Positions 1 to 60,105 of a stretch of DNA of 64,000 nucleotides are shown one piece after another. The stretch is from Gigantopelta aegis (lineage: Eukaryota > Mollusca > Gastropoda > Neomphalida > Peltospiridae): positions 9,962,429-10,026,428 of the forward strand of contig NC_054699.1 in assembly GCF_016097555.1 (NCBI RefSeq), in the 5' to 3' direction. The position numbers were made by a program, and so were the translations under genes. Under the pieces are notes generated by a model, which saw only the letters and a list, made by a program, of their open reading frames with translations, ran no database searches and was not told where the DNA came from. Position 1 is the first letter of the stretch; each line of letters starts with the position of its first letter.

Positions 1-414
1 TTAGGCAATCTTCGACTGTTGAAGGGCTCGAGCCACGACACAGTGACATCGCCCCTGTCTTACATCAAGACTTCAGGTTTAACACACTCGATACAAAATT
101 AACTAAGGGCTATAGATATTTTCGGCTCTTTTTTTTCGTTCTTTTTTATTAATATGTAATGCAAAATACTTTTGTTTGTGATTTTCTTTTTTCATAAATG
201 CATAAATGCATAAATTTATTAAATTTAAAATTATATACAAGCATATGCAGTTAAACAAGCATAAGTATTTTGCACTATGACATCATATGTGAAACACAAT
301 GTCATTATCTGTAAGACATTACAATTTCTGAATTCTGTTGATCAAACTGATAGCTCTTATTGGTCAATGCTAAGGAAATTCCCTGTTTTACACCGGAAAT
401 AGTGCAATATCATG
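1..414. other. Unassigned AT-rich sequence, probably intron
   Basis: No convincing exon, RNA or repeat was recognised. It lies upstream of the first visible exon of the oxidoreductase gene, so it is probably intron of that gene. It holds a short repeat of ATAAATGCATAAATGCATAA near 195. Confidence 0.4.
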
Positions 415-2031
415 ATTTATCGGTTCGTAAAACCACAGAGTAGTGCAATATCATGGTTTATCGGTTCGCAAAACCACAGAGTAGTGCAATATCATGGTTT
501 ATCGGTTCGTTAAACCACAGAGTAGTGCAGTATCATGATTTATCGGTTCGCAAAACCACAGAGTAGTGCAATATCATGATTTATTGGTTTGTTAAACCAC
601 AGAGTAGTGCAATATCATGGTTTATCGGTTCGCAAAACCACAGAGTAGTGCAATATGATTTATCGGTTCATTAAACCACAGAGTAGTGCAATATCATGAT
701 TTATCAGTTCGTTAAACCACAGAGTAGTGCAGTATCATGATTTATTGGTTCACAAAACCACAGAGTAGTGCAATATCATGATTTATCGGTTCGTTAAACC
801 ACAGAGTAGTGCAATATCATGATTTATCGGTTCGTTAAACCACAGAGTAGTGCAATATCATGGTTTATTGGTTCGCTAAACCACAGAGTAGTGCAATATC
901 ATGGTTTATTGGTTTGTTAAACCACAGAGTAGTGCAGTATCATGATTTATCGGTTCGATAAACCACAGAGTAGTGCAATATCATGATTTATTGGTTTGGG
1001 TAAACCACAGAGTAGTGCAATATCATGGTTTATTGGTTCGCTAAACCACAGAGTAGTGCAATATCATGGTTTATTAGTTTGTTAAACCACAGAGTAGTGC
1101 AGTATCATGATTTATCGGTTCGTTAAACCACAGAGTAGTGCAATATCATGATTTATTGGTTCGGTAAACCACAGAGTAGTGCAATATCATGATTTATCGG
1201 TTCACAAAACCACAGAGTAGTGTAATATCATGATTTATCGGTTCACAAAACCACAGAGTAGTGCAATATCATGGTTTATCGGTTCGTTAAACCACAGAGT
1301 AGTGCAATATCATGATTTATCGGTTCGCAAAACCACAGAGTAGTGCAATATCATGGTTTATCGGTTCGTTAAACCACAGAGTAGTGCAATATCATGATTT
1401 ATCGGTTCGCAAAACCACAGAGTAGTGCAATATCATGATTTATTGGTTCGTTAAACCACAGAGTAGTGCAATATCATGATTTATCGGTTCATTAAACCAC
1501 AGAGTAGTGCAGTATCATGATTTATCGGTTCGCAAAACCACAGAGTAGTGCAATATCATGATTTATTGGTTTGTTAAACCACAGAGTAGTGCAATATCAT
1601 GGTTTATCGGTTTGTTAAAGCACAGAGTAGTGCAATATCATGATTTATCAGTTCGTTAAACCACAGAGTAGTGCAATATCATGATTTATCAGTTCGTTAA
1701 ACCACAGAGTAGTGCAATATCATGATTTATCGGTTCGTTAAACCACAGAGTAGTGCAGTATCATGATTTATCGGTTCGCAAAACCACAGAGTAGTGCAAC
1801 ATCATGATTTATCGGTTCGTTAAACCACAGAGTAGTGCAATATCATGGTTTATCGGTTCGTTAAACCACAGAGTAGTGCAACATCATGATTTATCGGTTC
1901 GTTAAACCACAGAGTAGTGCAACATCATGATTTATCGGTTCGTTAAACCACAGAGTAGTGCAACATCATGATTTATCGGTTCGTTAAACCACAGAGTAGT
2001 GCAATATCATGGTTTATCGGTTCGTTAAATC
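415..2031. repeat. Minisatellite, 41-bp unit, about 39 copies
   Basis: The unit reads roughly GTAGTGCAATATCATG followed by RTTTATCGGTTCGTTAAACCACAGA. Copies are directly adjacent with no unique spacers. Variation is confined to a few positions (GATTTA/GGTTTA, CGGTTC/TGGTTT, GTTAAA/GCAAAA). The array probably lies in an intron of the oxidoreductase gene and ends abruptly where a SINE begins at about 2036. Confidence 0.95.
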
Positions 2032-2035
2032 ACAG

Positions 2036-2336
2036 AGAAATAGCCCAATGGGTCCACCGATTAGGATCGATCCCTGTTGGTGGACCCATTGGGCTATTTC
2101 TCATTCCAGCCAGTGCTCCACAACTGGTGTAACAAAGGCCATGGTATGTACTATCCTGTCTGTGGGATGGTGCATATAAAAGATCCCTTGCTGCTAATTG
2201 AAAAGAATAGCCTTGAAGTGGTAACAGCGGGTTTCCTTCCTCAATATCTGTGTGGTCCTTAACCATATGTCCGACGCCATATAACCGTAAATAAAATGTG
2301 TTGAGTGTGTCGTTAAATAAAACATTTCCTTCCTTC
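2036..2336 (+). mobile_element. SINE, head type 1, with snap-back 5' end
   Basis: The conserved core (CTATCCTGTCTGTGGGATGG, then CATATAAAAGATCCCTTGCT) and the 3' tail ending GTCGTTAAATAAAACATTTCC plus CCTT repeats are shared with many copies in this window. Instead of the usual tRNA-like head, the 5' end is an inverted duplication: 2037-2058 is the exact reverse complement of 2079-2100, around a 20-nt loop. It was probably transcribed by RNA polymerase III originally and looks inactive. Confidence 0.85.
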
Positions 2337-2426
2337 CTATAATAGTTTTTTTTATATATATATATACACATCAATAAAATATCCACATGATTATTGCTGA
2401 CATCAGAATAAATAATTTGTGTTGAG

Positions 2427-2650
2427 GTGGTATTCTGAACGATTCGACAATCCATGATCTCGACATGTCTATGTGGATGGTGGGGTCGCGACCCGAAATC
2501 ATCTCCGTCCATGGAAATGCCTTCAACTCCGGCATCCGAGACTGTGGGGACTGCGACCTCGTTGTCGTCACCATTAAGTACCAGAACGGAGTCATCTCCG
2601 TCATCGACAACGGTCGTCAGGCAACCTTCGGCTACATTCAGAATATGGAG
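2427..2650 (+). CDS. Inositol 2-dehydrogenase-like oxidoreductase, exon (antepenultimate)
   Basis: This is an internal exon of a Gfo/Idh/MocA-family NAD-dependent dehydrogenase, closest in my reading to inositol 2-dehydrogenase (IolG), which oxidises myo-inositol to 2-keto-myo-inositol in the cytosol. The exon reads GGILNDSTIHDLDM, then GDCDLVVVTIKYQNGVISVI and DNGRQATFGYIQNME. The D-x3-H of NDSTIH (Asp codon 2441-2443, His codon 2453-2455) matches the catalytic Asp and His of the family, and GxxDLVVVTIKYxNG matches the conserved C-terminal-domain beta strand. The acceptor AG is at 2425-2426, with a codon split after its first base; the donor is GAG|GTAGGT after 2650, phase 0. The N-terminal Rossmann domain must be encoded upstream of the window. 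Exact substrate is inferred from family resemblance only. Confidence 0.82.
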
Positions 2651-3700
2651 GTAGGTTAAAGTTTTAACAGTGACTACATGTACCTTGGGCTACATTCAGA
2701 ATATGGAGGTAGGTTAAAGTTTTAACAGTGACTACCTTGGGCTACATTCTGAATATGGAGGTAGGTTAAAGTTTTAACAGTGACTACATGTACCTTGGGC
2801 TACATTCTGAATATGGAGGTAGGTTAAAGTTTTAACAGTGACTATCCTTGGGCTACATTCTGAATATGGAGGTAGGTTAAAGTTTTAACAGTGACTATCC
2901 TTGGGCTACATTCTGAATATGGAGGTAGGTTAAAGTTTTAACAGTGACTATCCTTGGGCTACATTCTGAATATGGAGGTAGGTTAAAGTTTTAACAGTGA
3001 CTATCCTTGGGCTATATTCTGAATATGGAGGTAGGTTAAAGTTTTAACAGTGACTATCCTTGGGCTATATTCTGAATATGGAGGTAGGTTGGAGGTAGTT
3101 TGAACAGTGACTACCTTGGGCTACATTCTGAATATGGAGGTAGGTTAAAGTTTTAACAGTGACTACCTTGGGCTATATTCTGAATATGGAGGTAGGTTAC
3201 AGTTTGAACAGCGACTACCTTGGGCTATATTCTGAATATGGAGGTAGGTTACAGTTTGAACAGCGACTACCTTGGGCTATATTCTGAATATGGAGGTAGG
3301 TTACAGTTTCAACAGCGACTACCTTGGGCTATATTCTGAATATGGAGGTAGGTTACAGTTTCAACAGCGACTACCTTGGGCTATATTCTGAATATGGAGG
3401 TAGGTTACAGTTTCAACAGCCACTACCTTGGGCTACATTCTGAATATGGAGGTAGGTTACAGTTTTAACAGGGACTACCTTGGGCTATATTCTGAATATG
3501 AAGGTAGGTTACAGTTTCAACAGCAACTACCTTGGGCTACATTCAGAATATGGAGGTAGGTTAAAGTTTTAACAGTGACTACCTTGGGCTATATTCTGAA
3601 TATGGAGGTATGTTACATTTTAACAGTGACTACCTTCGGCTATATTCTGAATATGGAGGTATGTTACATTTTAACAGTGACTACCTTTGGCTATATTCAA
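2621..3700 (+). repeat. Minisatellite made of the exon's 5' splice junction, about 20 copies
   Basis: The unit is 51-58 bp: the last 20 or so exonic bases (GGCTACATTCWGAATATGGAG), the donor GTAGGTT, then AAAGTTTTAACAGTGACTACCTTG. The first copy is the real exon end at 2650. Later copies carry substitutions such as CTACAT to CTATAT, and the last ones change GTAGG to GTATG. Almost every copy keeps a good donor (GAG|GTAGGT). Using an inner donor would read GAG GTA GGT TAA, a stop. Confidence 0.93.
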
Positions 3701-3815
3701 AATACGTAGCCCAGTGGTAAAGCTCTTGTCTGATGTGCAGATGGTTCGATCCCCTTCTGTAGGCCCATTGGGCTATTTCTCATTTCAGCCAGTGCTCCAC
3801 AACTGGTGTGAGAAA
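3701..3815 (+). mobile_element. SINE fragment, head type 1 (tRNA-like 5' part)
   Basis: It carries the tRNA-like head with A-box-like TAGCCCAGTGGTAAAGC and B-box-like GGTTCGATCC, followed by GGCCCATTGGGCTATTTCTC. It is truncated after AACTGGTGTGA and runs directly into the acceptor-site array. It marks the boundary between the donor array and the acceptor array inside one intron. Confidence 0.8.
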
Positions 3816-4640
3816 GGGTGTTTAAAAGTGTATTATTGTCTTGCAGGCAGTGTGTGACAAAGGTAATTATTGTCTTGCAGGCAGTGTGTGAGAAAGGGTG
3901 TTTAAAGTGTATTATTGTCTTGCAGGTAGTGTGTGACAGAGGGTGTTTAAAAGTGTGTTATTGTCTTGCAGGCAGTGTGTGACAAAGGGTGTTTAAAAGT
4001 GTATTATTGTCTTGCAGGTAGTGTGTGACAAAGGTAATTATTGTCTTGCAGGCAATGTGTGAGAAAGGGTGTTTAAAGTATTATTGTATTGCAGGCAGTG
4101 TGTGACAGAGTGTTTAAAAGTGTATTATTGTCTTGCAGGCAGTGTGTGACAGAGTGTTTAAAAGTGTATTATTGTCTTGCAGGCAGTGTGTGACAGAGGG
4201 TGTTTAAAAGTGTATTATTGCCTTGCAGGCAGTGTGTGACAGAGGGTGTTTAAAAGTGTGTTATTGCCTTGCAGGCAGTGTGTGACAGAGGGTGTTTAAA
4301 AGTGTATTATTGCCTTGCAGGCAGTGTGTGACAGAGTGTGTTTAAAAGTGTATTATTGCCTTGCAGGCAGTGTGTGAGAAAGGGTGTTTAAAAGTGTATT
4401 ATTGTCTTGCAGGCAGTGTGTGACAGAGAGTGTTTAAAAGTGTATTATTGTCTTGCAGGCAGTGTGTGACAAAGGGTGTTTAAAAGTGTATTATTGCCTT
4501 GCAGGCAGTGTGTGACAGAGAGTGTTTAAAAGTGTATTATTGTCTTGCAGGCAGTGTGTGACAAAGGGTGTTTAAAAGTGTGTTATTGTCTTGCAGGCAG
4601 TGTGTGACAGGGTGTTTAAAAGTGTATTATTGTCTTGCAG
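3816..4640 (+). repeat. Minisatellite made of the next exon's 3' splice junction, about 19 copies
   Basis: The unit is about 44-47 bp: GTGTATTATTGTCTTGCAG, which is a pyrimidine-containing acceptor, then exonic GCAGTGTGTGACAAAGGGTG and TTTAAAA. The last copy is the true start of the exon at 4641. Shorter copies near 3860 and 4030 contain AAAG|GTAATT, a donor-like site, so they could act as micro-exons. Using an upstream acceptor shifts the frame into TGA within one unit, so only the last acceptor gives an intact protein. Confidence 0.93.
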
Positions 4641-4806
4641 GCAGTGTGTGATAAAGGGTGTTTAAAAGTGACGAACAGAGAGACGTCGTACCTTCATAAA
4701 TACAGCCTGGATATGCTAAAGTCTCCCAACATCGACTATGACTTTGTGACTCGATACCCAGAGGCCTACCACAATGAGATGGAGCACTTCCTCAATGTGT
4801 TGCAGG
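4641..4806 (+). CDS. Inositol 2-dehydrogenase-like oxidoreductase, penultimate exon
   Basis: It continues the frame in phase 0 from 2650. The join gives QNME-AVCDKGCLKVTNRETSYL, which fits the IolG-type pattern Q-R-V-E-V-F-G-S-K-G-M-L-x-V, then ITR-like RYPEAYHNEMEHFLNVLQG, the conserved helix containing RYxEAYxxEMxxF. The acceptor is TTGTCTTGCAG|GCAGTG and the donor is TTGCAGG|GTGAGT after 4806, phase 1. The exon start is itself the last unit of the acceptor array. Confidence 0.82.
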
Positions 4807-4978
4807 GTGAGTGTTTATCATACAACACACACAGGGCGTGGTCATGGGTTCAAACCCCCTCGGTGGAACCGCTCACTGTTTAGATGTGTTGTGGGGTGAG
4901 TGTTTATTATATGACACACACAGGGCATAGTCATGGGTTCAAACCCCCTCAGTGGAACCATTCACTGCTTAGATGTGA
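4807..4978 (+). repeat. Two tandem copies of about 87 bp carrying the following intron's donor
   Basis: TGTTGCAGGGTGAGTGTTTA at the true donor is repeated as TGTTGTGGGGTGAGTGTTTA at about 4887, each followed by an ACACACAGGGC...GGGTTCAAACCCCCTC segment. The second copy keeps GGTGAGT. The GGGTTCAAACCCC part resembles a tRNA B-box and may come from a SINE head. Confidence 0.8.
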
Positions 4979-6595
4979 CTACCATGTTGGATGGGTGGTG
5001 GTGAGGTGGGAAGGAGACACATCCAAAGATTCCACCATGACCACCATGTTGGATGGGAGGTGGTGGGGTGGGAAGCAAACACATCCAAAGATTCCACCAT
5101 GACTGCCATGTTGGATGGGTGGTGGTGAGGTGGGAAGGAGACACATCCAAAGATTCCACCATGACCGCCATGTTGGATGGGTGGTGGTGAGGTGGGAAGG
5201 AGACACATCCAAAGATTCCACCATGACCGCCATGTTGGATGGGTGGTGGTGAGGTGGGAAACAAACACATCCAAAGATTCCACCATGACTACCATGTTGG
5301 ATGGGTGGTGGTGGGAAGGAGACACATCCAAAGATTCCACTATGACCACCATGTTGGATGGGTGGTGGTGAGGTTGGAAGGAGACACATCCAAAGATTCC
5401 ACCATGACTACCATGTTGGATGGGTGGTGGTGGGAAGGAGACAAATCCAAAGATTCCACCATGACTACCATGTTGGATGGGTGGTGGTGGGAAGGAGACA
5501 CATCCAAAGATTCCACTATGACCACCATGTTGGATGGATGGTGGTGAGGTGGGAAGGAGACACATCCAAAGATTCCACCATGACTACCATGTTGGATGGG
5601 TGGTGGTGAGGTGGGAAGGAGACACATCCAAAGATTCCACCATGACTTCCATGTTGGATGGGTGGTGGTGGGAAGGAGACACATCCAAAGATTTCACCAT
5701 GACTACCATGTTGGATGGGTGGTGGTGGGGTGAGAAGCAGACACATCCAAAGATTCCACCATGACCACCATGTTGGATGGGTGGTGGTGGGAAGGAGACA
5801 CATCCAAAGATTCCACCATGACTACCATGTTGGATGGGTGGTGGTGGGAAGGAGACACATCCAAAGATTCCACTATGACCACCATGTTAGATGGATGGTG
5901 GTGAGGTGGGAAGGAGACACATCCAAAGATTCCACCATGACTACCATGTTGGATGGGTGGTGGTGAGGTGGGAAGGAGACACATCCAAAGATTCCACCAT
6001 GACTACCATGTTGGATGGGTGGTGGTGGGAAGGAGACACATCCAAAGATTTCACCATGACTACCATGTTGGATGGGTGGTGGTGGGGTGAGAAGCAGACA
6101 CATCCAAAGATTCCACCATGACCACCATGTTGGATGGGTGGTGGTGAGGTGGGAAGGAGACACATCCAAAGATTCCACCATGACTACCATGTTGGATGGG
6201 TGGTGGTGAGGTGGGAAGGAGACACATCCAAAGATTCCACCATGACTACCATGTTGGATGGGTGGTGGTGGGAAGGAGACACATCCAAAGATTTCACCAT
6301 GACTACCATGTTGGATGGGTGGTGGTGGGGTGAGAAGCAGACACATCCAAAGATTCCACCATGACCACCATGTTGGATGGGTGGTGGTGGGAAGGAGACA
6401 CATCCAAAGATTCCACCATGACTACCATGTTGGATGGGTGGTGTTGGGAAGGAGACACATCCAAAGATTTCACCATGACTACCATGTTGGATGGGTGGTG
6501 GTGGGGTGAGAAGCAGACACATCCAAAGATTTCACCATGACTACCATGTTGGATGGGAGGTGGTGGGGTGGGAAGGAGACACATCCAAAGATTCA
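4979..6595. repeat. Minisatellite, 45-60-bp unit, about 30 copies
   Basis: The unit is based on ACCATGTTGGATGGGTGGTG, a variable GTGGGG/GAGGTGGGAAGGAG stretch, then ACACATCCAAAGATTCCACC. Length variants differ by presence of the TGAGGTG block. It lies inside the last intron of the oxidoreductase gene. Long open frames on both strands are by-products of the repeat and are not genes. Confidence 0.94.
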
Positions 6596-6599
6596 CAAG

Positions 6600-7115
6600 T
6601 GTTGGGCCTTTTAGATGATAAATATGTCGAGAAACATATTCTTTCTTCTGTGATATATATATAATTATTATACGAGCTTGTGTGTTGTACTGATTTTATG
6701 AAACGAGTGTGAGGATTTTTGTATTGCCCAAGCGAGATAGAGGGTAATACATGAATCCTGACATGAGTTTTCGTAAAATCAGTATGATTCACACACAAAT
6801 GTAATAATTTCTTTATCATACATATTATCCATGATATTATTTCATGAATAACAAGCTAGGATCATGTCAAAATGTTTCAAACGTAACTAGAAGAAGATGA
6901 CAAAACGATGTCATTTTCCAAAATGACTTGGTTTTGGTAAGCATTTACACATAGCTAAGACTGAGGAAGGTGCATCAAGTTATGTCGTCGCTTCCCAAAA
7001 TTACGTCATTCGTTGTGCACGTGAAATTATGACACACACGTGTCATACTGGTTATATTTCCCTGAATATCTTGAACTATGCTATGTGGATAATATATTTT
7101 TGTTTTCACATGCAG
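6600..7115 (+). other. Non-repetitive 3' part of the last intron
   Basis: No element was recognised apart from a short TA-rich tract near 6650. It ends in the acceptor TTTGTTTTCACATGCAG at 7115. Confidence 0.6.
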
Positions 7116-7237
7116 GAAAAGCTCAACTGGGAATAACGGAGGAGGACACTCTGAGGGCCATGGCTTTGGTTGAGGCCGGCAACGCGTCACTGAAATCGGG
7201 AAAACCGGTCATTGTTGATGAGTACGACAGAGCTTAA
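7116..7237 (+). CDS. Inositol 2-dehydrogenase-like oxidoreductase, last exon
   Basis: Joined in phase 1 to the previous exon, it reads GKAQLGITEEDTLRAMALVE, AGNASLKSGKPVIVDEYDRA and a TAA stop. This is the C-terminal helix of Gfo/Idh/MocA enzymes, where D(T/A)xxAxxLVExxxxSLKxGKPV is typical of the inositol dehydrogenase group. No coiled coil, membrane segment or targeting signal is seen. Confidence 0.82.
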
Positions 7238-7379
7238 CTTTTACACTGTTGTAGTGTTACTTTGTTTTATGATGCTTTATTTAGTATTGTATTTCTGCAC
7301 TGTTACTGTTGTATTATTATCGTGTTACTTTATTGATGAACTACAGCATAATGGAATCACCATTTGCACGTAAATGGTT

Positions 7380-8365
7380 GATTTAGAAATGATATCTTCA
7401 AGTTACTACATAAAATATTGATGACTGGTTTTCTGTAGCAAAGTACATGTTTGTGACTAGTACACATGTCTAACTTTCTTCAAGTTCCTACGTGAAATAT
7501 TGATAACATTCTGTGATTCTCGGTAACAAAGTATGTGACTTGTATAACTATTTTCAAGTTAATTCATGAAATATTGATAAACTTCTGTGATTATCGGTAA
7601 TGAAGTATGTGAGTAGTATAACTATTTTCAAGTTACTTCATGAAATATTGATAATAACATTCTGTGATTTTTGGTAACTATTTTCAAGTTACTATGTGAA
7701 ATATTGATAATAAAGTTTTGTGATTATCAGTAATGAAGTACAAATGTATGTGACTAGTATAACTATTTTCAAGTTACTACACAAAATATTAATAAAGTTC
7801 TGTGATTTTTGGTAACGAAGTACGTGACAAGTATAACTATTTTCAAGTTACTTCATAAAATATTGATAATAACATTCTGTGATTTTTGGTAACAAAGTAT
7901 TTGACTAGTATAACTATTTTCAAGTTACTTCATGAAATATTGATAATAACATTCTGTGATTTTTTTAACGGAGTATGTGACTTGTATAACTATTTTCAAG
8001 TTACTTCATGAAATATTGATAATAACATTCTGTGATTTTTTTAACGGAGTATGTGACTTGTATAACTATTTTCAAGTTACTTCATGAAATATTAATAAAG
8101 TTCTGTGATTTTTGGTAACGAAGTACGTGACAAGTATAACTATTTTCAAGTTACTTCATGAAATATTAATAAAGTTCTGTGATTTTTGGTAACGAAGTAT
8201 GTGACAAGTATAACTATTTTCAAGTTACTTCATGAAATATTAATAAAGTTCTGTGATTTTTGGTAACGAAGTACGTGACAAGTATAACTATTTTCAAGTT
8301 ACTACACAAAATAGTGATAAAGTTCTCAAATTTTCTGCAACAAAGTATGTGACATGTATAACAAT
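7380..8365 (+). repeat. Minisatellite in the 3' flank, about 70-80-bp unit, about 13 copies, with repeated AATAAA
   Basis: The unit is built on ATTTTCAAGTTACTTCATGA, AATATTGATAATAAC/AATATTAATAAAG and TTCTGTGATTTTTGGTAACG. It starts about 145 bp after the stop codon, so it is probably 3' UTR or downstream flank. Copies with AATAAA occur at 7709, 7791, 8094, 8168 and 8242, so the array offers several candidate poly(A) signals. Confidence 0.88.
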
Positions 8366-8502
8366 TTATCATCCACATTCACTTTAACTGCTCACAATAT
8401 TTTTGGCAATTACCAGTAGATATGACAGAATTGCTCTGTATTGGACAGTAATTTGAGAAATTATTAGTTAGTGGGAGGTAGGGATTCATGTTCAGGCACC
8501 GG

Positions 8503-8503
8503 T

Positions 8504-8549
<46 letters not shown>
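8503..8549. repeat. Poly(G) tract, about 46 bases
   Basis: This is a nearly uninterrupted G run in an AT-rich setting. Its exact length may be affected by assembly. Confidence 0.9.
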
Positions 8550-8827
8550 GGTGTTGGATAGACAACCACATCCAAATAATTACTAATGTAATACTGTAAA
8601 ACTGTAGTGATATTACTGGTGTGATACTAGTGTATAATTGTAATACTGCTTCATACATTTTATATTTATAATATTTAACGATTATTTTGCTTAAAAAGTA
8701 TTAAAAGATGTTTCATATCAAATTGCAGTTTTTGTTTCTCTGTGTTTCCATGGACAAATACAGGGTACAGGATGTGCATCACCTTTTTTGAGTATTTGGC
8801 AGAAATTTAAGGTCAATGGCCTCTTTG

Positions 8828-9508
8828 TTCTGCACACACACGCTCGCATATGAATCGACATACACACTATTTGCACACGCATGCACGCACGCATATGAAT
8901 CGACATACACACTATTTGCACACACACACACGCATGCTCGCATATGAATCGACATACACACTATTTGCACACGCACGCATATGAATCGACATACACACTA
9001 TTTGCACACGCACGCATATGAATCGACATACACACTATTTGCACACGCACGCATATGAATCGACATACACACTATTTGCGCACGCACGCACGCATATGAA
9101 TTGACATGCACGCACACACGCACATGAATCGACATACACACTATTTGCGCACGCACGCATATGAATCGACATACACACTATTTACACGCACGCACGCATA
9201 TGAATCGACATACTTTGCACACGCACGCACGCACGCATATGAATCGACATACACACTATTTGCACACACGCACGCTCGCATATGAATCGACATACACACT
9301 ATTTGCACGCACGCACGCACATGAATCGACATGCGCACGCACGCACGCATATGAATCGACATACACACTATTTGCACACACACGCACGCATATGAATCGA
9401 CATACACACTATTTGCACACACACGCACGCATATGAATCGACATACACACTATTTGCACGCACAGACCACATATGAATCGACATGCACACTATTTGCACA
9501 CACAGACC
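8828..9508. repeat. Minisatellite, about 40-45-bp unit, about 17 copies
   Basis: The unit is GCATATGAATCGACATACAC followed by ACTATTTGCACACGCACGCA, with a variable CA/CG dinucleotide spacer. The alternating purine-pyrimidine spacers are the type that can adopt Z-DNA. Open frames over it are not genes. Confidence 0.92.
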
Positions 9509-9513
9509 AGTCC

Positions 9514-9876
9514 TTAAAGGGACATACCCTAGTTTTTAAACACTAAGGCATAGTTTTTACTACTAAAGCCGTTTTTGATAACTGAAATCATACTTTACTT
9601 TGATTTTATTGTTTAGATTAGCCATTTCCGTACATTCTAAGTGTTTTTGGTCATCCTGGTGTTTTTAATATCACAAAATGCATTTCTTATATTTTTAAAA
9701 ACACACGTGCGTCTGAAAGGTAATAGTTATGAAGTCAAGTTTGAGTCTATTTTTAGAGGGTATTTCACCATTTCAAAGTCACAGACTCGTGTTTCACTCA
9801 ATTGTAACTTTATTCAAATTTGTAGATTAACTAATGTGTTAATTTTCATGGGCTGAAACTAGGGTATGTCCCTTTG
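9514..9876 (+). mobile_element. TTAA-type MITE, family A, copy 1
   Basis: The terminal inverted repeat starts AAAGGGACATACCCTAGTTT and ends AAACTAGGGTATGTCCCTTT. The left flank is TTAA; on the right this has drifted to TTTG. It is about 360 bp with no coding capacity, a non-autonomous DNA element. Relatives lie at 30670, 31478 and 37169. Confidence 0.88.
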
Positions 9877-10037
9877 TCATATGAGATGCGAGATTGCGCT
9901 TTTGTGTCCTTGCACACTTGAATTCATCTGGGAAATATTTATTTATTATCCACCTAAAAATATGTGATAACATGGGATGGGGGTTGGGATTTCCACAAGC
10001 AGATTACATGAGCGGGGCACACAGAAAATTTTGAAAA

Positions 10038-12547: not shown

Positions 12548-12647
12548 TACTCTGACGTCAGCATTGCCACCGGAAACCGATATATGCGGAAGCGGCGTAA
12601 TAGATTTTGCTTTGATCTTTTTAGAGCGTAAAACGATCTAAGTCAAA
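12548..12647 (+). promoter_or_regulatory. Probable MSL2 promoter and 5' UTR with CRE and ETS-like sites
   Basis: A perfect TGACGTCA (CRE/ATF type) lies at 12553-12560. CCGGAA (about 12570) and GCGGAAG (about 12587) resemble ETS-factor sites. No TATA box is apparent. This TATA-less CRE/ETS arrangement is common for housekeeping genes; function is inferred. Confidence 0.5.
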
Positions 12648-13814
12648 ATGACAACCAGATCAAGTGCTATGGAACTTTACTTTTCCACCTGTAGATGTGT
12701 AATGCAGGCAGACCCGCTCGATCGCGAGTCTTGGACGGATCTATACCGATATTTGCCACTGATGAGGCAGGCCATTTCGTGCAGTGTTTGCGGGAATATT
12801 CTGTTAAAACCTTTGCGACCACCGCACACGATTTGCCAACACAATATTTGCGCCGGGTGTGTCGGCGGGAAGTTCCGATTGAAGCCGACATGCAGTTGGT
12901 GCAAAACTCACACGAATTTTGTCGAAAATAGCCAGATGAGATTATTGATTTTGTGTTTCAAGAAACTGTGCACTTACATCTATGGATCGCCGATTGGGAC
13001 AGAAATATCGGCGAGTACGACGAACGGCGAGACCAACAGTTTGGAGCTGTTGTTGAAAGAGGTTATCAAGTTTGAAGATAAAGAATATACTGTGGGGACG
13101 ACGGTTTCACGTCTGACTATGCCCGTGTTGACTCCTGTTACAGTAAAGAATCAGAAACCTGGCAGGCGAAAATTAAAATATATTGGATCCAATGTCGCAA
13201 ACGAAAATTCTCGAAGCGATCCACCAACATTGCATCCTATTCACATGACGTCTGATGATGCCATTACGTCGTCCAGTGACTTTGCAAATACAACCAATAA
13301 CTATGTTTCTAGTACAGATCATTGTGACCAGTCGTCTGAGGCCATTCCAAGATCAAGCACCAATCACAGGCGAGTTCACAGCAGAGTTCGTTCACAAAGC
13401 TTGAACCTTGGATTACCGAAGAAAGTCCAGTTTCACCGAAAATCATATGATGACAAACATCATTTTTTCAGACGACAGCAGAAGCTTAAGCAGCTCAAAT
13501 CGCAGCGGATTTCGTACGAGGAGAAATTCCTGTCTCAGCTACCCACCAAACGACTTCGTACGGAAACGACAGAATCCGAGCCGAAGAGGAAGATCTGCAA
13601 GTGTGCGCGCAACAATCTGCCCAACATCCTCACGTGCATGGGCCAGCGGTGTCCGTGTTACAGCAACTTCATGCCGTGTGTTGGCTGTCTGTGCCGAGGC
13701 TGTCGGAACAATCGGAAAGGCACGAGCGATAAAGCATTTGTGCCCATCAGTCCGTCAGGCCTGCGGTCACAAGGTCAGTTTGGTTTCCTGAACTCGTCCA
13801 GTGACTCGCTGTGA
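12648..13814 (+). CDS. msl2: MSL2 homologue, RING-type E3 ubiquitin ligase of the MSL complex
   Basis: This 388-residue protein is encoded in one exon. MSL2 is the E3 ligase subunit of the nuclear male-specific-lethal complex, which acetylates histone H4 K16 through MOF. The N-terminus has the MSL2 RING: C45-x2-C48, C63-x-H65, C68-x2-C71, C82-x2-C85, followed by FVENSQ...LILCFKKLCTYI as in vertebrate MSL2. The C-terminal CXC domain (about residues 316-355: CKCARNN, CMGQRCPCYSN, CVGCLCRGCRNN) is the DNA-binding module of the family. Between them lies a Ser/Thr/Lys-rich disordered linker, shorter than in the roughly 570-residue human protein. The ATG at 12648 was chosen because it precedes the conserved region by the usual distance; Met8 is an alternative. 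No damage is seen. Confidence 0.93.
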   Translation: MTTRSSAMELYFSTCRCVMQADPLDRESWTDLYRYLPLMRQAISCSVCGNILLKPLRPPHTICQHNICAGCVGGKFRLKPTCSWCKTHTNFVENSQMRLLILCFKKLCTYIYGSPIGTEISASTTNGETNSLELLLKEVIKFEDKEYTVGTTVSRLTMPVLTPVTVKNQKPGRRKLKYIGSNVANENSRSDPPTLHPIHMTSDDAITSSSDFANTTNNYVSSTDHCDQSSEAIPRSSTNHRRVHSRVRSQSLNLGLPKKVQFHRKSYDDKHHFFRRQQKLKQLKSQRISYEEKFLSQLPTKRLRTETTESEPKRKICKCARNNLPNILTCMGQRCPCYSNFMPCVGCLCRGCRNNRKGTSDKAFVPISPSGLRSQGQFGFLNSSSDSL

Positions 13815-38394: not shown

Positions 38395-39994
38395 CTACTC
38401 AAAAGAATTTAAGGGTCAGACGATATTTTCGACATTATTTTCTGAATGTCAATTATATTAGCTAGACCATAATGTCACGCATGGTATTGTTCCATTTTGA
38501 CGAAAGTGGGTCTCAGCAACCCATAAATGAATTAAAATCCACTGTCATTGACACTGTCGACTAGTTCTAATGGCGAAAACATGCTTACATTTGCACGTAA
38601 ATTATGGCGAAAGCGAAAGGTCTGCTAAGTGCCCATAACTTGCTTTTTCACAAAGCGCTTCATTTGCACGCTTTGCATGTGTATTCCATGTTCCCAATGC
38701 TGAATTTCCGTATAATTGGAGCTTGCGTTCGTGTACGGTGCACACTCCAAATTCGACAATGGTACGACATCAACTGACTATCGAAGATCGAGGAAGGGCT
38801 ATTGCTTGGCTTCAGGATGGCAATACGCAAAGAAATGTTGCTCTGAGACTTGGTGTCAGTCAGAGTGTCGTTGGCCGACTGTGGCAACGGTACCAAGCAA
38901 CGAATTCTGTTCGAAATCGTCCACGTTCGGGAAAACCCCGAAGCACTACAAATAGAGAGGACCGCTACATCACCAATATGACTCTACGTCAACGCACAAC
39001 CACTGCACGCCGATTACGTGACAATCTGCGGACTGCGACTGGAACTCGAGTGTCTGATCAAACCATACGCAATCGTCTGAGAGCCAATAATCTACGCTGC
39101 CGTCGCCAGGCTGTTCGACCACCACTCCTACCACGTCACAGAACGGCCAGACGTCACTGGCGCACACTTCATCTGCGGTGGCAACGTGTTCAGTGGGGTC
39201 GAGTGATGTTCCCTGATGAGTCCAGGTTTAGTCTCCAGTTCAACGACGGTCGGGTTGGTGTCTACAGACGTCCTGGGGAGTGCTTCGCTGACGTTAACGT
39301 TAGACAACGTCACCGGTTCGGTGGTGGCAGCGTCTTGGTGTGGGGCGGCATCTCTATCCACCACAGGACACCCCTCTATGTGGTGGATGGCAATCTGATG
39401 GAATCCGCTATCTGAATGAGATTATCCGGCCGTTGGTTCTCCCAGGCCTTCAGCAGATTGGCGGCGGGGCAGTTCTGCAGGATGACAATGCCAGACCCCA
39501 CCGCGCCAGGGTGGTAACGGACTTTCTCAGACAACAAGGTATCGCCAGGATGGATTGGCCAGCATATTCGCCTGACTTGGCCCCAATAGAGCACGCCTGG
39601 GACGAATTAGGCAGGAGAGTTCGGGATAACCATGCCCCTCCGGCCAACCTTCATGATCTGGGTCAACTTCTTATGGCAGAGTGGCAGGCCATTCCCCAAG
39701 AGTTCTTCAGACGTCTGATCAACAGCATGAGGCAACGATGTGTCGAGTGTATTCGCGCCAGGGGTGGATTCACACACTATTAAACGAATGTTCTAATGTG
39801 TAAAATCCATGTTTGACAACCTTCAACTTTGACAGCATGTCATGTGACTTTCTTGTATACAGTGACGTTTATTTGTGGGTTTTTGTAAATATGGAACAAT
39901 AAATTAAATTTTTAGTTTAGTTTACATCATCAATCTAATACACTCTGAAACGTATTTGGTTATACATTTTTGACCCTTAAATTCTTTTGAGTAG
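38395..39994 (+). mobile_element. Tc1-type transposon, near-complete
   Basis: TIRs CTACTCAAAAGAATTTAAGG plus GTCA and their exact inverse are flanked by TA. The element is about 1600 bp with one transposase gene carrying a single frameshift. Matching ends suggest a relatively recent insertion. Confidence 0.93.
38759..39783 (+). pseudogene. Tc1-family DD34E transposase with one frameshift
   Basis: The N-terminal part is a paired-type helix-turn-helix DNA-binding region (LTIEDRGRAIAWLQDG, SQSVVGRLWQRY) with a GRPR-like NRPRSGKPRS. The catalytic residues are D in FPDESRFSL, D in LQDDNARPH and E in APIEHAWDELG; the last two are separated by 34 residues, the DD34E spacing of Tc1. A one-base deletion near 39398 (within CAATCTGATGGAATCC) breaks the frame between two otherwise intact parts, 38759-39412 and about 39397-39783. 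The total length of about 341 codons equals the family norm. The product would cut and paste the element at TA sites; this copy is probably not autonomous. Confidence 0.92.
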
Positions 39995-44068: not shown

Positions 44069-44119
44069 AATACATGAAGGATACCATTCCAACGAAAGAC
44101 TTGTTTTATCACCCTGACA
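44069..44119 (+). promoter_or_regulatory. 5' leader of the giant gene's exon with overlapping upstream ORF
   Basis: The acceptor CTGCTTTCTTTCAG ends at 44068. An upstream ATG at 44074 opens a 25-codon frame (MKDTIPTKDLFYHPDNDVSK...) that ends at TGA 44149-44151, overlapping the main ATG at 44120 in another frame. This arrangement would normally reduce translation of the main frame, unless the upstream ATG is skipped. Confidence 0.5.
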
Positions 44120-47100
44120 ATGACGTATCCAAGATCAGGGCGCGAACTTGAAGACACGTTTGTTCAGTTGTTTGGTCAGCCAAACGAACAAGACCCAAGA
44201 GGATGCGAAAAAGAAAATAATTATGCAATAAGTCCGTTAAATTATATCCAGAAAGAAGATAATTATGCAACAAGTCCGCAAAATTATTGCCAAAGAGAAA
44301 ATTCAGTTACGAATCGGCCAGATTCTCCTTCATTTTCAGTCAATTTAGATTCTTCCACACCAGAGCTGTGCCCCCAGCAGCAAATATGGGAACCCAGTTG
44401 CGTACTCGTTCAAACGAGCGTTCCGGGAGATCTTTTCGGCAGTCGCTTTCCCACACACGTCGCTTATCCCAGTATAAAGAACATTGCTAATCTAGTGAAT
44501 GCGTGTGCTACAACGCCGCGTGAAGATTCTGCGATGTTCGGCTCCTATAATCTTGATTCACCGACACCTCCCCCAGAAGATCCGGGGACCAGACCCATTG
44601 CTGATCTAATATCGCCAAGTAGCAGGATGGGCATGCAACAGGCGTTTAGAAGAAACCTTGATTACTTTGCCGATCACGAAAAATCAGTTTCCAGAGGCAG
44701 TTCACGTGATACACAAGGCGACAACAGAAGTATATGTCATAGAAACAAGTCCAGTTCACATTCTGATTTAACTGATCACAGAGTCAGGTCCACTTCATGT
44801 GATGTTTTAACAGATTGTAAAAACCAGTCCAGCTCAGGAGAAGTTACTGATTATATAGACAAATTCAGTTCACGTGGAGTTGTAACTGATTATAGAAACA
44901 CGCCCAGTTCAAGTGGAGTTGTAACTGAGTCTAGAAACACGTCCAGTCCACGTGGAGTTGTAACTGATTATAGAAACAAGCTCAGTCCACATGGAGTTGT
45001 AACTGAGTCTAGAAACACGCCCAGTCCACGTGAAGTTGTAACTGATTATAGAAACAAGCTCAGTCCACATGGAGTTGTAACTGAGTCTAGAAACAAGCTC
45101 AGTCCACATGGAGTTGTAACTGAGTCTAGAAACACGCCCAGTTCAAGTGGAGTTGTAGCTGATTATAGAAACACGCCCAGCTCAAATGGAGTTGTAACTA
45201 ATTATAGAAACACGCCCAGTTCAAGTGGAGTTGTAACTGATTTTAGAAACACGTCCACTTTAGGTGGAGGTGTCACTGGTTATAGAAACAAGCTCAGTCC
45301 ATGTGGAGTTGTAACTGATTATAGAAACACGCCCAGTTCAAGTGGAGTTGTAACTGATTATAGAAACACGCCCAGTTCAGGTGGAGTTGTAACTGATTAT
45401 AGAAACACGCCCAGTTCAAGTGGAGTTGTAACTGATTATAGAAACATGTCCAGTTCAGGTGGAGTTGTAACTGATTATAAAGAAAGGCCAGTCTTGCGCG
45501 ATGCACCTGATTATAGAAATACACCCAAATCAGGTGTTGTAATGGATCACAGAACCAAGTCCAGCCCATGTCATACTTTAACTGGTTGTAGAAAAAAATC
45601 TGCATCGCGTTCTGTTGGAACCAAGTGTAGAAACTCATCCATCTCAAGCGATGTAACTGAAAATACAAAGATGTCTACTTCACGTGATGTTGTCTCAGAT
45701 TACAGAAATAAATGTAGTGCAGGTGATATTGTAACTGATCATAGAAACAAGTCCACTTCTAGTGATGTAACTGATTTTACAAATGCGCCAAGTTCACGTG
45801 GTGATGTTTCTGATTATAGAAACAAGTTCAGTTCAGGTGTTATTGTAACTGATGACAGAAACAAGTCCACTTCTAGTGATGTAACTGATTTTACAAATGC
45901 GCCAAGTTCACGCGGTGATGTTTCTGATTATAGAAACAAGTTCAGTTCAGGTGTTATTGTAACTGATCACAGAAACATGTCCACTTCACATGGTACAACT
46001 CGTCATAGATCAATATTCGGTTTACACGATGTAACTGATCATAGAAATAAGTCTACTTCACTTGATACAACTGATTGTAAAAACGTGTCCAGTTTACATG
46101 TTGTAATTGATCACAGAAAAAGGTCCACTTCACGTGATACAACTGATTGCAGATACATGTCCTGTCCACGTAATTTCACTGATTATAAAAAAAAAATCAA
46201 TTCATATGATACATCTGTTTTCAAAGACATGTTGTCTGCTTCACACAATTTAACTGACCACAGAAGCAATTTCAGTTCAGGTGATGTGGTGACTGATCAC
46301 AGCAACAAGTCCCCTTCCAGTTATACATCTGGTTGTAAAGACTACGTCGTGTCTGCTTCACGTCATTTTACTGATCATAGAAACAACTTCAATTCAGGTT
46401 ATGTTGTAACTGATCATAAAAACAAGTCTACGTCGCATGATACAACTGATTGTAGAAATGTGTCTGGTTCGCGGAATGTAACTGATTATAGAAACAAATC
46501 CAGCCTGTGTGATGGTCTAAGTGGTTATGAAAAACAGTTCATATCAAGTGATGTTGTAACTGATTGCACATACCACGTGTCCAGTTTGGGTGATGCAACT
46601 GATTACAGAAACAAGTCCATATCCAGCAGTAACTTCAGTGAAAGAACTTTTGATGAAGAAATATTTTCAGATCTCAAATCTCCGAACAGATATGTGGAAT
46701 GTCAAAGCATGTTCACCTCAAGTGATGTTGCAACTGATGGTAGATACAAATCCAGCTCAGGTGATGTAACTGATCGTAGAAGCAAGTCCATATCCAGCAA
46801 TAATTTCAGTGAAAGAACGTTTGATGAAGAAACATATTTAAACCTTAAATCTCCTAACACATACTTGGACATTTGGGAAGGAAATTTGTTGCCTCTTAAC
46901 ACAAGTATTAATGCTAGTGAATATGACACGCCAACACAGGGAAGTAATAATGGGGGTACATTTTCTGAATGCAAAAAGATATTGTCTGACAAAACCGCTG
47001 ACACCAATTTCACTGATTGCGAGACGCCATTGTTTAATAGCAGCAGCACAGAGACATTCATTGATTGTGCAACGTCATTCACTAATATCAACGCTGGTGG

Positions 47101-50100
47101 CAACGTCAGTGTTTGTAGAACCCCATCAAACAATAGTGATTTTATCGATTGTGAAACATCGGCATCTTGGTCCAACAATGTTCGTAAGTCCACTGCTCGT
47201 AGAACACCATCGTGCACTAGCACCGCTGGGGAACATTTCAGTGATGCTACATTTGTTGCCTGTAGAACTCCTTCATTTAACAGTCAAGTTGGGGAGAACT
47301 TCACAGACTGTGACACGTGGTCGTCATCGAGTGACACAAATGAAAGTATTGTTACATGCAAATTGTTGCAGTCACCGGGAGCAGTCAAAGCTGGTAACGG
47401 TTATAACATTTATAGAACGACTTCCTGTACTAACAACCTGGATGAAAGCTTCATCGATTGTGAATGCTTTTCACCTTTGGACAGCACTGTTGATGATTTT
47501 ACTGTGAGTAGTCGATCACCTAGCAATAATGGAGATGACATTAGTGCTGACAGTAGAGTACACAGAAACACTGATAATAATGATATTGATTGCAACAGAA
47601 CACCCACAAACATTGGTGATAACTTTATTACAGCTTTCTGTATTACACCTAGCAACACTGGTGATGAGTTCACTGTTTATGACGTAACAGCTGGCAACAC
47701 TGGTGATGAGTTCACTGTTCATGACGTAACACCTAGCAACACTGATGGTGATTTGTCTATTCAAAGCATAACGCCCAGCAAAATTGGTGATACCTTTTCT
47801 GTTCATAGCATAACACCTAATAATTCTGGTGATGGATTTACAGGTCGTAGAAGAAAACCCAGCAACTCTGCTGGTAACTTCACACCACATAGTTACGACA
47901 ATGATGATGTTTTTGGTAGCATAATGTCATCTTTGGATAGCAGTTATGGCAATGCTGGTATTTCTCCTGAAACCTTTGTATTCAGCTGTACAGAAAGTGT
48001 TTTGTCTTGTAACCTGTCACCATATGGCAGCGTGGATGTTGATCAGGCAAAGTCTCCAGTCACTAAAGAAAACAGCAATGTGTTCAAGCCTACTGTCCCA
48101 GTATCACCAGCATATGACTCTGGTCAAGTAAATGGTTTTGTAATGCCAATGTCTGATTGTTTTGAGAAGGATACCAGAGATGAAGGAGACGAAGGAGTTA
48201 AAGCAGCTGGAAGTAACAACAAGACTAGTGATAAAGCCATTGAATGTAAATCATTGCTACCAAGTCACCAGATCACAAACGTTAATATAGATGATATAAC
48301 AGATGATACGACCAAGGACACATGTCTATTCACTGTCTCAACATCAAGTCCTGCTGGTTTAAGTGCTGTGACCTTGGCACACATGGCTGGTGATGTCAAA
48401 GATGTGGAATGTGAGTCACCAAAGTCAGTAAAAGTACAGAGGTCAGATACAAATGTCTTAGTCACTGCACAACATATACCAGATAAAACTATTTTAGTAA
48501 CTGCACAAGATATGCCAGATAAAACTGTTTTAGTACCTGCACAAGATATGCCAGATAAAACAGAGTTCGACAACATACAAGATACATCAGATACAACTGT
48601 GTTAGTCACTGCACTAGATATATCAGATGCACCTATAGTGGTCACTGCACAAGATATATCAGATGAAACTGTGTTAGTTGATGAAAAAGACATATCAGAT
48701 GAAACTGTGTTAGTCAATGCAGAAGAAATATCAGATGAAACTGTGTCATCCACTGCACAAGATACACAAGATAAAACTATGTTGATCAATGCACAGGATA
48801 TACCAGATACAACTGTGTCAGTCAATGCTCAAAACATACCAGAATCCTCAGCACATGGACAATCAAAGAGAGATACAGAAGATGCATGTGAAACATCTGC
48901 AGACAGGCGACTGCCGCAGTCATCACACGATTCCACAGCTTGTGCTCACGTAGCAGCATGTAATATGGATAATATGTCACTGGAGATATGTTCGGCTGGA
49001 GACGACTATCCCAATCCAGAATATACAACAGTTTTGGAATCGCTGTGTAGTAGTAGTAGTAGTATTACCACGAAGGACCCTATTCAAGCTGTGTCAGCCA
49101 GTGATGTGTCTGATATTGTAATGCAAAAAGAAAGTAACATTTCGAATGACAATAGGCCAGTTCCCGATATGCAGAATCAAGCCACCAAATTGGTCAGCCT
49201 TGATTACGGAAGCGCACATTCCTTGATGCACAATGAACAGAAGGAAACACCAAGTGTGGAGATGTCAGCATCAGAAGAATTAACCAGCCCAAATACTTCT
49301 GATACATCAAAGTGTGATTTAGGAGATTTCACAGGAGGTGATGTTACATTGATAAAAGAACTTACTATAAATGATTCACTTGTTGATGGTTCACAGAGCA
49401 AACAAGATGAACTATCGAACCAAATAGTTCAACAAAACGAATGTGGGGATGGTGACCAAACAGTGCTTGGTTATAAACATGAAGATACGGGTGCTGATTC
49501 ATGCCCTGGTGTTGATGAAAACCCTCTTTGTTTGATACAAAAGATAAATAAAAGCAATGCTGGTGGTAAACAAGATGCCTTAGAGTTCATAACATCACCT
49601 GGAAAAGACTCTTCTCCCAAATGCCAGTTGGAACATGTAGGAAATAAGAATTCATTAACAGATATAGGATCACCCAAAACGTCAAGAAACCAGCTGGTAC
49701 TGAACCGTTCATCCACAAGGATGCATTCTCCAAGAATGTCCAGGACCCGGCTACTAAATAGGAATTCATCAGCTTGGATCTACTCGCCCAAGATATCCAG
49801 GACCCAGCTAGCAAAGAAAAATTCATCAACTGGGTTATGCTCTCCCAAACTGTCCAGGACCCGGCTCCTGAATAGAAATTCATCAGCTGGAATAAACTCT
49901 CCAAGAATGTCCAGAACCCAGCTAACAAATACAAATTCATCAGCTGGCACACGCTCTCCCAAGATCTTAAGAATCAATTTAGGAAATAAGAATTCATCAT
50001 CTGGGCTCTGCTCTTCTAGGATGTCTAGAACCCAGCTTTCTCCCAAAATGTGTAGAAGACGAGTAGGAAATAGAAACGCAAATGGCATAACATTTGGTGT

Positions 50101-53100
50101 CATGCCAGCAGAGTACAGCACCTCATCACTTGATCCTACTGACAGTGCACACTCTTCGTTTTTGTCCTGTGCATCGTTTCACACATTTAGCAACCCATTA
50201 CCAGAATGTAATAGCTTCACGGAAATGCCACTGTGCAGTGAACTAGGACCAAAGATTACAAACATCAATACGAAATCAGACTCTGTAAGAATTGCTATTC
50301 CCAATACATCAATGGTGCTTGATATTAAAGTACAAAAAAGTGATTCAGTTTCAATGGGGTCCGGATGTTGTAGTCGCAGTGCCTCAAAGGTAATAATCGA
50401 GGTTTTTGGAGCTAACATGACTGTCGGTAAAAGCAGAAGTAGAAATGAAATAATTTGTTCACCTTGCCCAGTGGATGATGGGGTCGTGGATCAGGTTCTT
50501 GTTGAGTGTATTTCAAATGCTGTAGACATCTGTTCAGCCAGAAAGGACAGAGCATGTCAAGCTAATTGGATAACACCTGAAACGGTCAGCAACATAGTTT
50601 GTGATGACTTAAACAATGTCGTCCAGTCGTGGGTAGTCACAACAAGTGATGGAAACCAATTTCAAACTGATACCATAGAAATCAGTCCTGGACCCTCAGC
50701 CGTGATCTGCATGGACACTGCCCAGCCAAGTGAGTTCACGCTACAGAGTGGACAAGAGATGTATAGATCATCTGTGGAAAGCAACCAGCTACAGTTTGGT
50801 GGTCTGAAAAACAAAGGGTGGCAGAGTGAGGAATCTGTGATTGTTGAGCAACCAAAGGGACCCGGCTTATCTCGATATACTTACAAAAGTGTGGAGGAAA
50901 GGTCTCAAGATTCAAGCTGTGGGTCAAGGTCACCGAAACCAGGTTGCTTCAGGATATGTTTCAAAAAGCGCGCAAAGTCGCCAGGTAGACAAGAGCTCGT
51001 TCTACAGACTGTGTCACGGGGATCACAGAAAAGTGAATATGAGTACCAGTGGACAGCCATGGACGATAACCAGGATGAATGTGGAACATTGAGATCCCCC
51101 AATGATTCTGTTCACGAAAGAAGAAGTTTATTCTCAAGGTCGAGTAGTGGTAAGTCTCCAGAGTGTGTGGAATCCGTGACGAAAGTTCGTGAAATAAGCG
51201 TGCATTCGTCATCACCTGGAAGTCGTTGCAGATCACCTCACCGCACTGAGTCAGTAACTAAAATTCATGAAGTGTCTGTTCATTCATCACCAAGATGCAG
51301 CAGAAAATGCTCACCGAGTGTTGAGTCTATCACGAAGGTCAGTGTGCATTCATCGCCTGGAGTTAGCAAAAGGTCCTCTTCTAGAAGTGTAAGCATATCC
51401 CCTCAACGGGTTGAGTCAGTCACAAAGATTAAGGAAGTCACTGTTGTTTCGTCGCCTCGAAGTAGTAGAAGATCCTCACTTGAAGGTAGTAGAAAATGCT
51501 CACCTAGAATTAGTAGAAGATGTTCACCTGAAGTTAGTAGAAGATCCCAGTCGGTCACAGAAATTAATGAAGTGTGTGTGCACGAATCATCACCTAAATC
51601 TATTATCAATAATGACACATGCACAAAGGTTTACATCGCGAGGGAGTGTTCAGAATCATCTGAAGACTACTGTGATGATGAAGATGACTCCTTCGGCAAT
51701 GCTCGTGGAGTACTTATACATTCGAAATCACCTGGCTTTGGATGTCCAGAAGAATGTGAATCTTATACAAAGATCACTAAAATAAATGTATGTTCAACCG
51801 ACAGCTCATTGTCCCTTGACGAATGTGATTCTCTGACAAACGTTCACTCAATAAGAGTTCATTCTCGAAGTCCTAGAAATAGATGTCGAGATGAGGGTGA
51901 GAATGTTAGACAACTCTTTCGTCAGATGTCTGCAGTGAACTTAAAAGATGTTGAGGATGATATATTGGACATGCCGTGTCCTAGGCGTAGAGCAAAAAGT
52001 ACCTCTTCTGTGAGGAGAAGTATCAACAAATTCTTCTCCCACACATCCACCATCTCACTATGCGAATACAGAAGCGTGGAAGAAGAAATATATCCAAAAG
52101 AAGTACTAAAAAAACTAAAACACCTGGAGTATGCGATATATATGATTCGCGTGCCTGTACAACCAACAGTGAAAATTTACAAAGCTCATATGCTCAGCGA
52201 TTCATTTTGTGACAAAGCGGAAAGAGGTTCCATCAGGTTTAGATCATCTTCAACAACGCAGTGCTCAGAATTGAATACTTCATTCGATACAAACACTCAG
52301 GTTTTTTCACAAGGCAGTGATCATGGAAAGAATGTAACAGTCAGTAAGACACACATACTGCATACTATTGAATCAAGAATTAAAGGCACTGTATCTCACC
52401 TGGAGTCTTTTGTCAACGAAAATGTGCACCCAATCATCGCACATTCCTTGAATGCTGCTATCTTAGATATAAGACGACAAATAAATGCATTGCCAGACAA
52501 CGTCTGCTGCCGTGTCCAAGCCATATGCGCCCCAATTGCCTGTCAAAGTGTGTGTCGTAGTGTTTGTGGACAGCCTGTCAGCGAAACTGTGTGCCAAACT
52601 GTGTGTCAGCCAGTTGTATGCCAAACTGTGTGTCCGCCAGTTGTATGCCAAACTGTGTGTCCGCCAGCTCTGAGTCACAGTGTTGATAGGGTAACGAAAA
52701 CCAAATTCATTGACGATGGGAAAGCTTCAATGTATCAGCGGATTTCTAGAAATACAGACGTCTGTAAACCCTCATCTTCGGCTGGTTCCACGATAATTAT
52801 TCCCCAGCACACTTCAATATCAAATCCAAACACTTCAACAGTAATCATTCCCCAGCGTACCTCAGGGTCCCATACACGACAGGTTCACATTGAAGTTGCT
52901 GGTGCACCATGCCGTTCGAGGTGGAAACAGTGTAATAGCCTCTCACAGACAGCAGGTTGTGTAGCTAAATGGGCTATAGAATCGTCCCAAAAGGAACTGC
53001 ACTTCATACTGGAGAGAGAACAAGGGGACTCTGGTTTACAGGATATTACAGTAATAACGAAAGAGAGGCTTGCAAACGAAGTCGTCCTATCTGGAAGCAT

Positions 53101-59960: not shown

Positions 59961-60105
59961 AGCTGCACAAGATCTTCCACGTGGAACCTCTGTACCAGAT
60001 CTTCTAATTTAAATCACTCTGCACGCTGGAGACACGATTAACAGCAACAGACAGACGCAACACATGGGCTACAGAGAACCTCTCGTCTTCAGATGCTCCT
60101 AAACG
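59961..60105 (+). promoter_or_regulatory. 5' leader of the second AKAP-like gene's exon
   Basis: The acceptor AATTTTCTTTTCAG ends at 59960. The leader contains a 14-codon open stretch from the acceptor (LHKIFHVEPLYQIF, then TAA at 60005-60007), which could be the end of an upstream frame. An in-frame TAA at 60100-60102 directly precedes the main ATG. Confidence 0.5.

Follow-up and report, generated by a model that had tools for sequence, protein, structure and literature searches.

Tandem arrays over both splice junctions of a single intron in a Gigantopelta oxidoreductase gene: a probable case of junction minisatellites expanding within an old intron

Introduction

An intron that begins with many copies of its own 5' splice junction and ends with many copies of its own 3' splice junction raises two questions: how such an intron came about, and how one pair of splice sites may be chosen among so many near-identical competitors. 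We analysed such an intron in a 64-kb stretch of DNA of the gastropod Gigantopelta aegis (64,000 nucleotides, here called the window), for which an earlier note, made from the sequence, had proposed separate amplification of the two junctions as well as growth of the intron by junction duplication.

Tandem repeats that span exon-intron boundaries are known from amphioxus, where they are called mirages and may cover either boundary; the accessible parts of the two reports (PMC3087553, PMC3902484) place them in the genes for Adh3, the globins BflGb6 and BflGb9, TnC, and PGBD5. In BflGb6 the mirage is on the acceptor side, with 6 and 3 units in two haplotypes, BflGb9 has a donor-side mirage with one duplicate, the PGBD5 mirages have 2-7 and 3-6 copies, and RT-PCR suggests undisturbed splicing in the globin genes that carry mirages (PMC3087553, PMC3902484). 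As described in those parts, amphioxus mirages have few copies and affect one boundary at a time, whereas the intron studied here carries 20 donor and 19 acceptor copies and a second Gigantopelta gene carries 10 of each. Three other phenomena share features with this intron, as judged from the accessible parts of the papers concerned. Minisatellites that alter introns in human paralogs (PMC2812944) likewise change exon-intron structure through tandem expansion; those cases involve recent segmental duplicates, elongation of exons or introns, and new introns, with no two-ended junction array described in the part consulted. Intron gain by tandem duplication, in a potato RdRp gene (PMC4974935) and in Drosophila (PMC2891723), likewise involves duplicated splice-signal sequence but makes a new intron, whereas the present case is one of lengthening of an intron already there. 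Stwintrons and other stepwise-spliced introns (PMC8469720, PMC7138796) have nested sites that permit consecutive excision; at our locus a possible AG/GT (slash, splice cut) at acceptor copies 3 and 5 might conceivably serve in this way. The view that nothing similar has been described is thus too broad, given the amphioxus mirages; the earlier note's narrower remark, on both junctions of one intron, may hold, as a search of open-licence literature, in the parts accessible, found no report of an intron arrayed at both ends or of any such array in molluscs.

Results and Discussion

The intron lies in an intact-looking oxidoreductase gene

The visible exons (Table 1) encode the C-terminal part of a Gfo/Idh/MocA oxidoreductase resembling myo-inositol dehydrogenase. 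When joined, the three exons A, B, and C match the NCBIfam myo-inositol dehydrogenase model TIGR04380 at 4.8e-35, the partial protein scoring below the cut-off of that model (121 vs 355 bits); Pfam PF22725 is matched at 5.3e-13 and PDB entry 4hkt at 5.6e-19, the latter in an alignment that is gapless across the exon A/B junction. The exons are open and match one family across that join, and the limits that had been proposed for exons A and B (2427, 2650, 4641, and 4806) fit. The end of the preceding exon was located by tblastn with a 43-residue peptide from the paralog L013 (E 0.053), and its frame allows for a one-base overlap between L021 and the window.

Table 1. Exons, arrays, and other junction-array loci
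Feature	Position	Strand	Description
3' end of exon before exon A	1..76	+	..KLGNLRLLKGSSHDTVTSPLSYIKTS, phase 1
Exon A	2427..2650	+	224 nt; ends ..FGYIQNME at first donor
Donor-junction array	2624..3698	+	20 copies of 51-58 bp; 26-27 nt exon-derived, rest intron-derived
Dispersed-repeat fragment	3704..3817	+	between the two arrays; tRNA-SINE-like by eye
Acceptor-junction array	3832..4670	+	19 copies of 34-46 bp; real junction is last copy
Exon B	4641..4806	+	166 nt; starts AVCDKGCLKVTN
Exon B donor junction, duplicated	4795..4977	+	89 bp x 2.1; 12 nt exon-derived
62/119-bp array	4976..6594	+	most of next intron; not a junction array
Exon C	7116..7237	+	last exon, with stop codon
L018, RSF1-like gene	L018:2385-3870 = G000:C1:9924814-9926299		about 38 kb upstream of window; two-ended
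L064	L064:1473-3000 = G000:C1:1173773-1175300		open 59-codon exon between acceptor and donor arrays
L068, myosin exon	L068:558-1001		donor, 80 bp x 5.5
L085, myosin exon	L085:283-482	-	donor, 98 bp x 2
L093, myosin exon	L093:1-437		acceptor, several diverged copies

Elsewhere, the window contains a large open exon of an MSL2-like gene (12642-13814; RING of MSL2 1.2e-25, CXC 3.5e-11), a Tc1/mariner-type transposase in two overlapping open frames (38639-39780), and two long open frames with internal repeats (44078-54496, 3473 codons; 60103-63999, 1299 codons), neither of which matched Pfam at E 0.001. Upstream of the window start, at a distance of 5-9 kb, lies an array with 47 copies of a 90-bp unit (L021:919-5169).

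Two arrays and a repeat fragment make up the intron

The copy numbers of about 20 and about 19 given by the earlier note were confirmed by counting, and both arrays were recovered with TRF, the donor array with a period of 52 and 20.3 copies and the acceptor array as rows of period 34 and 46. An acceptor unit consists of about 16 nt of intron end (TATTATTGTCTTGCAG) followed by up to 30 nt of exon start; donor and acceptor units alike therefore span an exon-intron boundary, as the tandem units of a mirage do by definition. The donor core is GTAGGTT in 18 of the 20 copies and GTATGTT in copies 19 and 20, copy 17 has AAG rather than GAG ahead of the GT, and a decayed partial copy follows copy 20, while TTGCAG/G is kept in 19 acceptor copies. 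Counting 27 nt per donor copy, exon-derived sequence accounts for about half (51%) of the 1990 nt of the intron. These observations support the view that the two junctions were amplified separately, leaving dozens of near-identical decoys.

Two further kinds of potential splice site lie within the acceptor array. Copies 3 and 5 continue GTAGTG past the cut (CAG/GTAGTG, at 3926 and 4018), and could thus be back-to-back acceptors and donors, that is, candidate recursive splice points. The short 34-nt units create AAG/GTAATT after 16-17 nt (3847-3865, 4018-4036), a possible decoy microexon. On the far side of exon B, use of the second donor copy would lead to a frameshift and a stop.

The fragment between the arrays had been taken for a truncated SINE. 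That it is a dispersed repeat was borne out: of 3083 first-look candidates 40 were scored, every one of them a match, and 39 of these lie elsewhere in the genome at 81-84% identity; its likeness to a tRNA-SINE was judged by eye, and tRNA and Rfam scans of the 64-kb window at gathering thresholds gave no hits. The end of the fragment has a GTGTGAGAAAGG-like stretch in common with the acceptor unit.

The intron position is older than the arrays

Six paralogous places (L012 to L017) were found in the genome. In four (L013, L014, L015, and L016) the exon terminates at the same codon and is followed by GT, and L017 appears similar at its exon end; none of the six has a junction-spanning copy. Since paralogs share the position and lack the arrays, the intron position is older than the arrays, and since conserved coding sequence makes up the exon-derived part of the units, the junctions gave rise to the arrays. 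Intron gain by tandem duplication was rejected, because the intron is present at the same codon in four paralogs without arrays. The intron that precedes the L013 exon contains acceptor-like repeats, which were rejected as a junction array because they lie away from the exon edge. Growth of an existing intron by junction duplication, as the earlier note had suggested, is thus supported, the arrays and the repeat fragment now constituting the whole intron.

All 17 matches to a donor-unit query fell inside this array, with no donor unit found elsewhere in the genome, and all 9 matches to a spliced-junction query fell at this locus, so that a retrocopy or second copy of the spliced junction was discarded; no contig representing this junction in a second haplotype was found. 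Among the donor copies, TTCGGC of the exon is present in copy 20 and absent from copies 2-19, copies 2 and 18 are identical, and copies 3-7 and 10 are identical over 52 compared columns. This pattern fits unequal exchange that homogenised the centre of the array and left older copies at its edges. Assembly of tandem arrays is difficult, and the identical donor copies could be read as a sign of an assembly artefact; the copies nevertheless carry ordered variants, the array sits in a 47 Mb contig, and the same anatomy recurs in unrelated genes, which makes such an artefact extremely improbable.

One open pair among 380, and a need for outward bias

It had been claimed that only the first donor joined to the last acceptor preserves the frame. 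With regard to stop-free reading this proved right, as donor 1 with acceptor 19 is the single open combination among 380; with regard to length phase it did not, since phase is kept in 126 of the 380. Among 100 letter-shuffled introns, exactly one open pair was left in 83, two in 13, three in 3, and five in 1; because 83 of 100 shuffles also give one, the single open pair is no sign of selection, and selection for a closed frame was ruled out. With 379 of 380 pairs closed, modest mis-splicing would already be costly, which could mean that the gene is decaying, its arrays already spoiling splicing and little correct mRNA being made. We consider this quite improbable, given that no stops or frameshifts were seen in the visible exons, that these when joined still match the myo-inositol dehydrogenase model as well as they do, and that myosin and PHD exons carry similar arrays.

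U1 pairing energy is -10.4 in 17 donors, -10.3 in one, and -6.9 in copies 19 and 20; as only the last two donors pair more weakly, nothing in the sites themselves marks the first donor. Across the copies, splice cores showed no more conservation than the remainder of the unit, either in donors (-3..+6, P 0.55) or in acceptors (-15..+1, P 0.23; -4..+1, P 0.21), and hence nothing indicates use of the copies. Pairing between the RNAs of the two arrays was likewise not detected (z +1.15).

A toy model with uniform choice among sites yields the correct product in 0.26% of cases in one step. Under an alternative scheme of intron removal, inner pairs would be used freely first and the outermost pair last, the intron thus being removed in steps. 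Splicing at a strictly inner pair does not remove the donors and acceptors outside it, and such nested re-splicing raises the correct product in the model to 20%; joining to acceptor copy 3 or 5 would, in addition, restore a donor (CAG/GUAGUG, U1 energy -10.0). Only nested errors can be mended in this way, however, and 80% of model transcripts end wrong if there is no outward bias. We therefore regard stepwise removal as unlikely, while noting that it concerns how the intron is removed and is compatible with an origin by expansion of both junctions. In the model, high accuracy would need a strong outward bias with or without nested re-splicing. Exon definition favours the outermost sites, which bound short exons, and may be the simplest source of such a bias; each inner copy would lengthen the exon by roughly 50 nt. 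As exon definition favours sites that bound exons of 224 and 166 nt, we infer that the outermost pair is the one used.

A branch site probably supplied by copied exon sequence

Upstream of the acceptor presumed to be used lie about 16 nt of intron-derived sequence and then a 28-nt copy of the exon start, an arrangement that is repeated through the array. Because only about 16 nt before each AG are intron-derived, the branch site of the used acceptor, if placed at the usual distance, would fall in an exon copy, and branch sites of this intron thus probably consist of copied exon sequence. Candidates of the form YTNAN, a motif that is common by chance, occur about 19-23 nt upstream in 17 of the 19 acceptors, the candidate A being followed by an AG within a few nt. 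The acceptors of the two-ended intron in L018 have 6-13 nt of intron-derived sequence with CTAAT, CTAAC, or GTAAC just upstream. In L064 the intron-derived part is mostly 29-34 nt, which may be long enough to hold a branch site of its own.

Junction arrays recur in the genome

The intron is not unique, since the same genome contains a second two-ended intron, and one-ended cases are present on three chromosome-scale contigs (C1, C5, and C8). The second two-ended intron, in L018, has 10 donor cores and 10 acceptors, with 1 of 100 pairs open, and the donor of the next exon is also arrayed (24 bp x 12.8, 6 exact cores); neither Pfam nor PDB gave a hit for the joined L018 peptide. In L029, a PHD exon (PF00628, 1.2e-10) is followed by a 25/33-bp donor array, the inner copies of which hold mostly 3 and at most 16 exon-derived nt, making this the weakest case. 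The order of PHD and then GIGRGKD presumably recalls human RSF1, and the PHD stretch of L029 and the L018 stretch probably belong to one gene. The exon in L064 has a 20-copy acceptor array on one side and, on the other, a donor array with at least 5 copies; it matched nothing in Pfam or PDB, for which reason its coding status is less sure. An array at C1:719699-722733 (CCAG/GTGAGT) was rejected as a junction array, as neither edge shows evident coding.

To place these cases, 47 exons with 94 edges were sampled blind, comprising 34 of 80 myosin-head matches, chosen before their flanks were seen (large contigs, no stops, no very long open frames), and 13 oxidoreductase-family exons. The detector flagged 4 of the 94 edges, and by eye 3 of 94 span the junction, all in myosin genes; L075 was counted by the detector and not by eye because its copy stops at the AG, and L095, a weak 31-nt partial seen with a laxer detector only, was not counted. 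Of the exon edges sampled in this genome, a few per cent thus carry junction arrays, a rate that is a lower bound because matched ends are not always exon ends. Control intron positions 150, 250, and 330 nt away lay in tandem repeats in 7, 14, and 11 of 94 cases (32/282 in total, the three positions per edge not being independent), and exon middles in 1 of 47. Edges were thus covered more rarely than intronic controls (4/94 vs 32/282, Fisher p 0.044, or 0.022 with 3/94, a depletion that rests on small counts).

Given this lower coverage of edges, splice sites do not appear to be a target. This bears on the idea that a process aimed at splice sites, for instance one linked to transcription or RNA, duplicates junctions specifically. 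Three of the six visible junctions of this gene are arrayed, compared with 3 of 94 sampled (p 0.0023 in a post hoc comparison), and a CAG/GTRAG triple pattern has 3760 matches against 797 for the reversed control, 4.7 times as many. The acceptor pattern, on the other hand, gave 595 vs 423, and long arrays, one of them without coding at either edge, inflate the pattern counts. Use of these counts as a genome-wide census was set aside because single long arrays dominate them and places were given for the first matches only. The excess of arrayed junctions in this gene fits its array-rich surroundings: in positions 1-10000, 67% of the remaining noncoding sequence consists of arrays, as against about 7% of the rough noncoding remainder of the window. 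A splice-site-directed process is therefore very improbable.

Conclusions

The intron is probably a two-ended mirage, an old intron in which minisatellites over both junctions expanded and the outermost pair of sites is still spliced. In a genome that forms tandem arrays freely, some of which can cross exon edges, two minisatellites may have been seeded separately over the two splice junctions and expanded until, with the repeat fragment, they made up the whole intron. The outermost copy at each end, attached to the real exon, would keep working and the inner copies would become intronic ballast, with the spliceosome picking the outermost pair through exon definition and the branch point of the used acceptor falling in copied exon sequence. 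The sequence shows the array anatomy, the exon origin of the units, the older intron position, the recurrence of such arrays, and the absence of a preference for junctions. Junction arrays appear to be tolerated because the outermost sites survive, and the best interpretation is that tandem amplification produces them as a by-product.

The two-ended arrangement, the copy number, and the branch sites in exon copies look new, and mirage-type repeats are extended beyond the amphioxus genes described in the accessible parts of the earlier reports. Laboratory tests of splice-site choice have used few duplicated sites. Here 20 near-identical donors compete with 19 near-identical acceptors in a natural contest, as do 10 with 10 in another intron. 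The arrays also offer a concrete mechanism by which introns lengthen and coding sequence becomes a branch site. We suggest, tentatively and as somewhat less than an even prospect, that in this genome junction arrays may be a continuing way in which introns of intact genes grow, with exon recognition keeping splicing accurate. If this is true, whole introns would become copies of their own ends, coding sequence would be turned into branch sites, and the arrays would constitute a natural, genome-wide test of exon definition.
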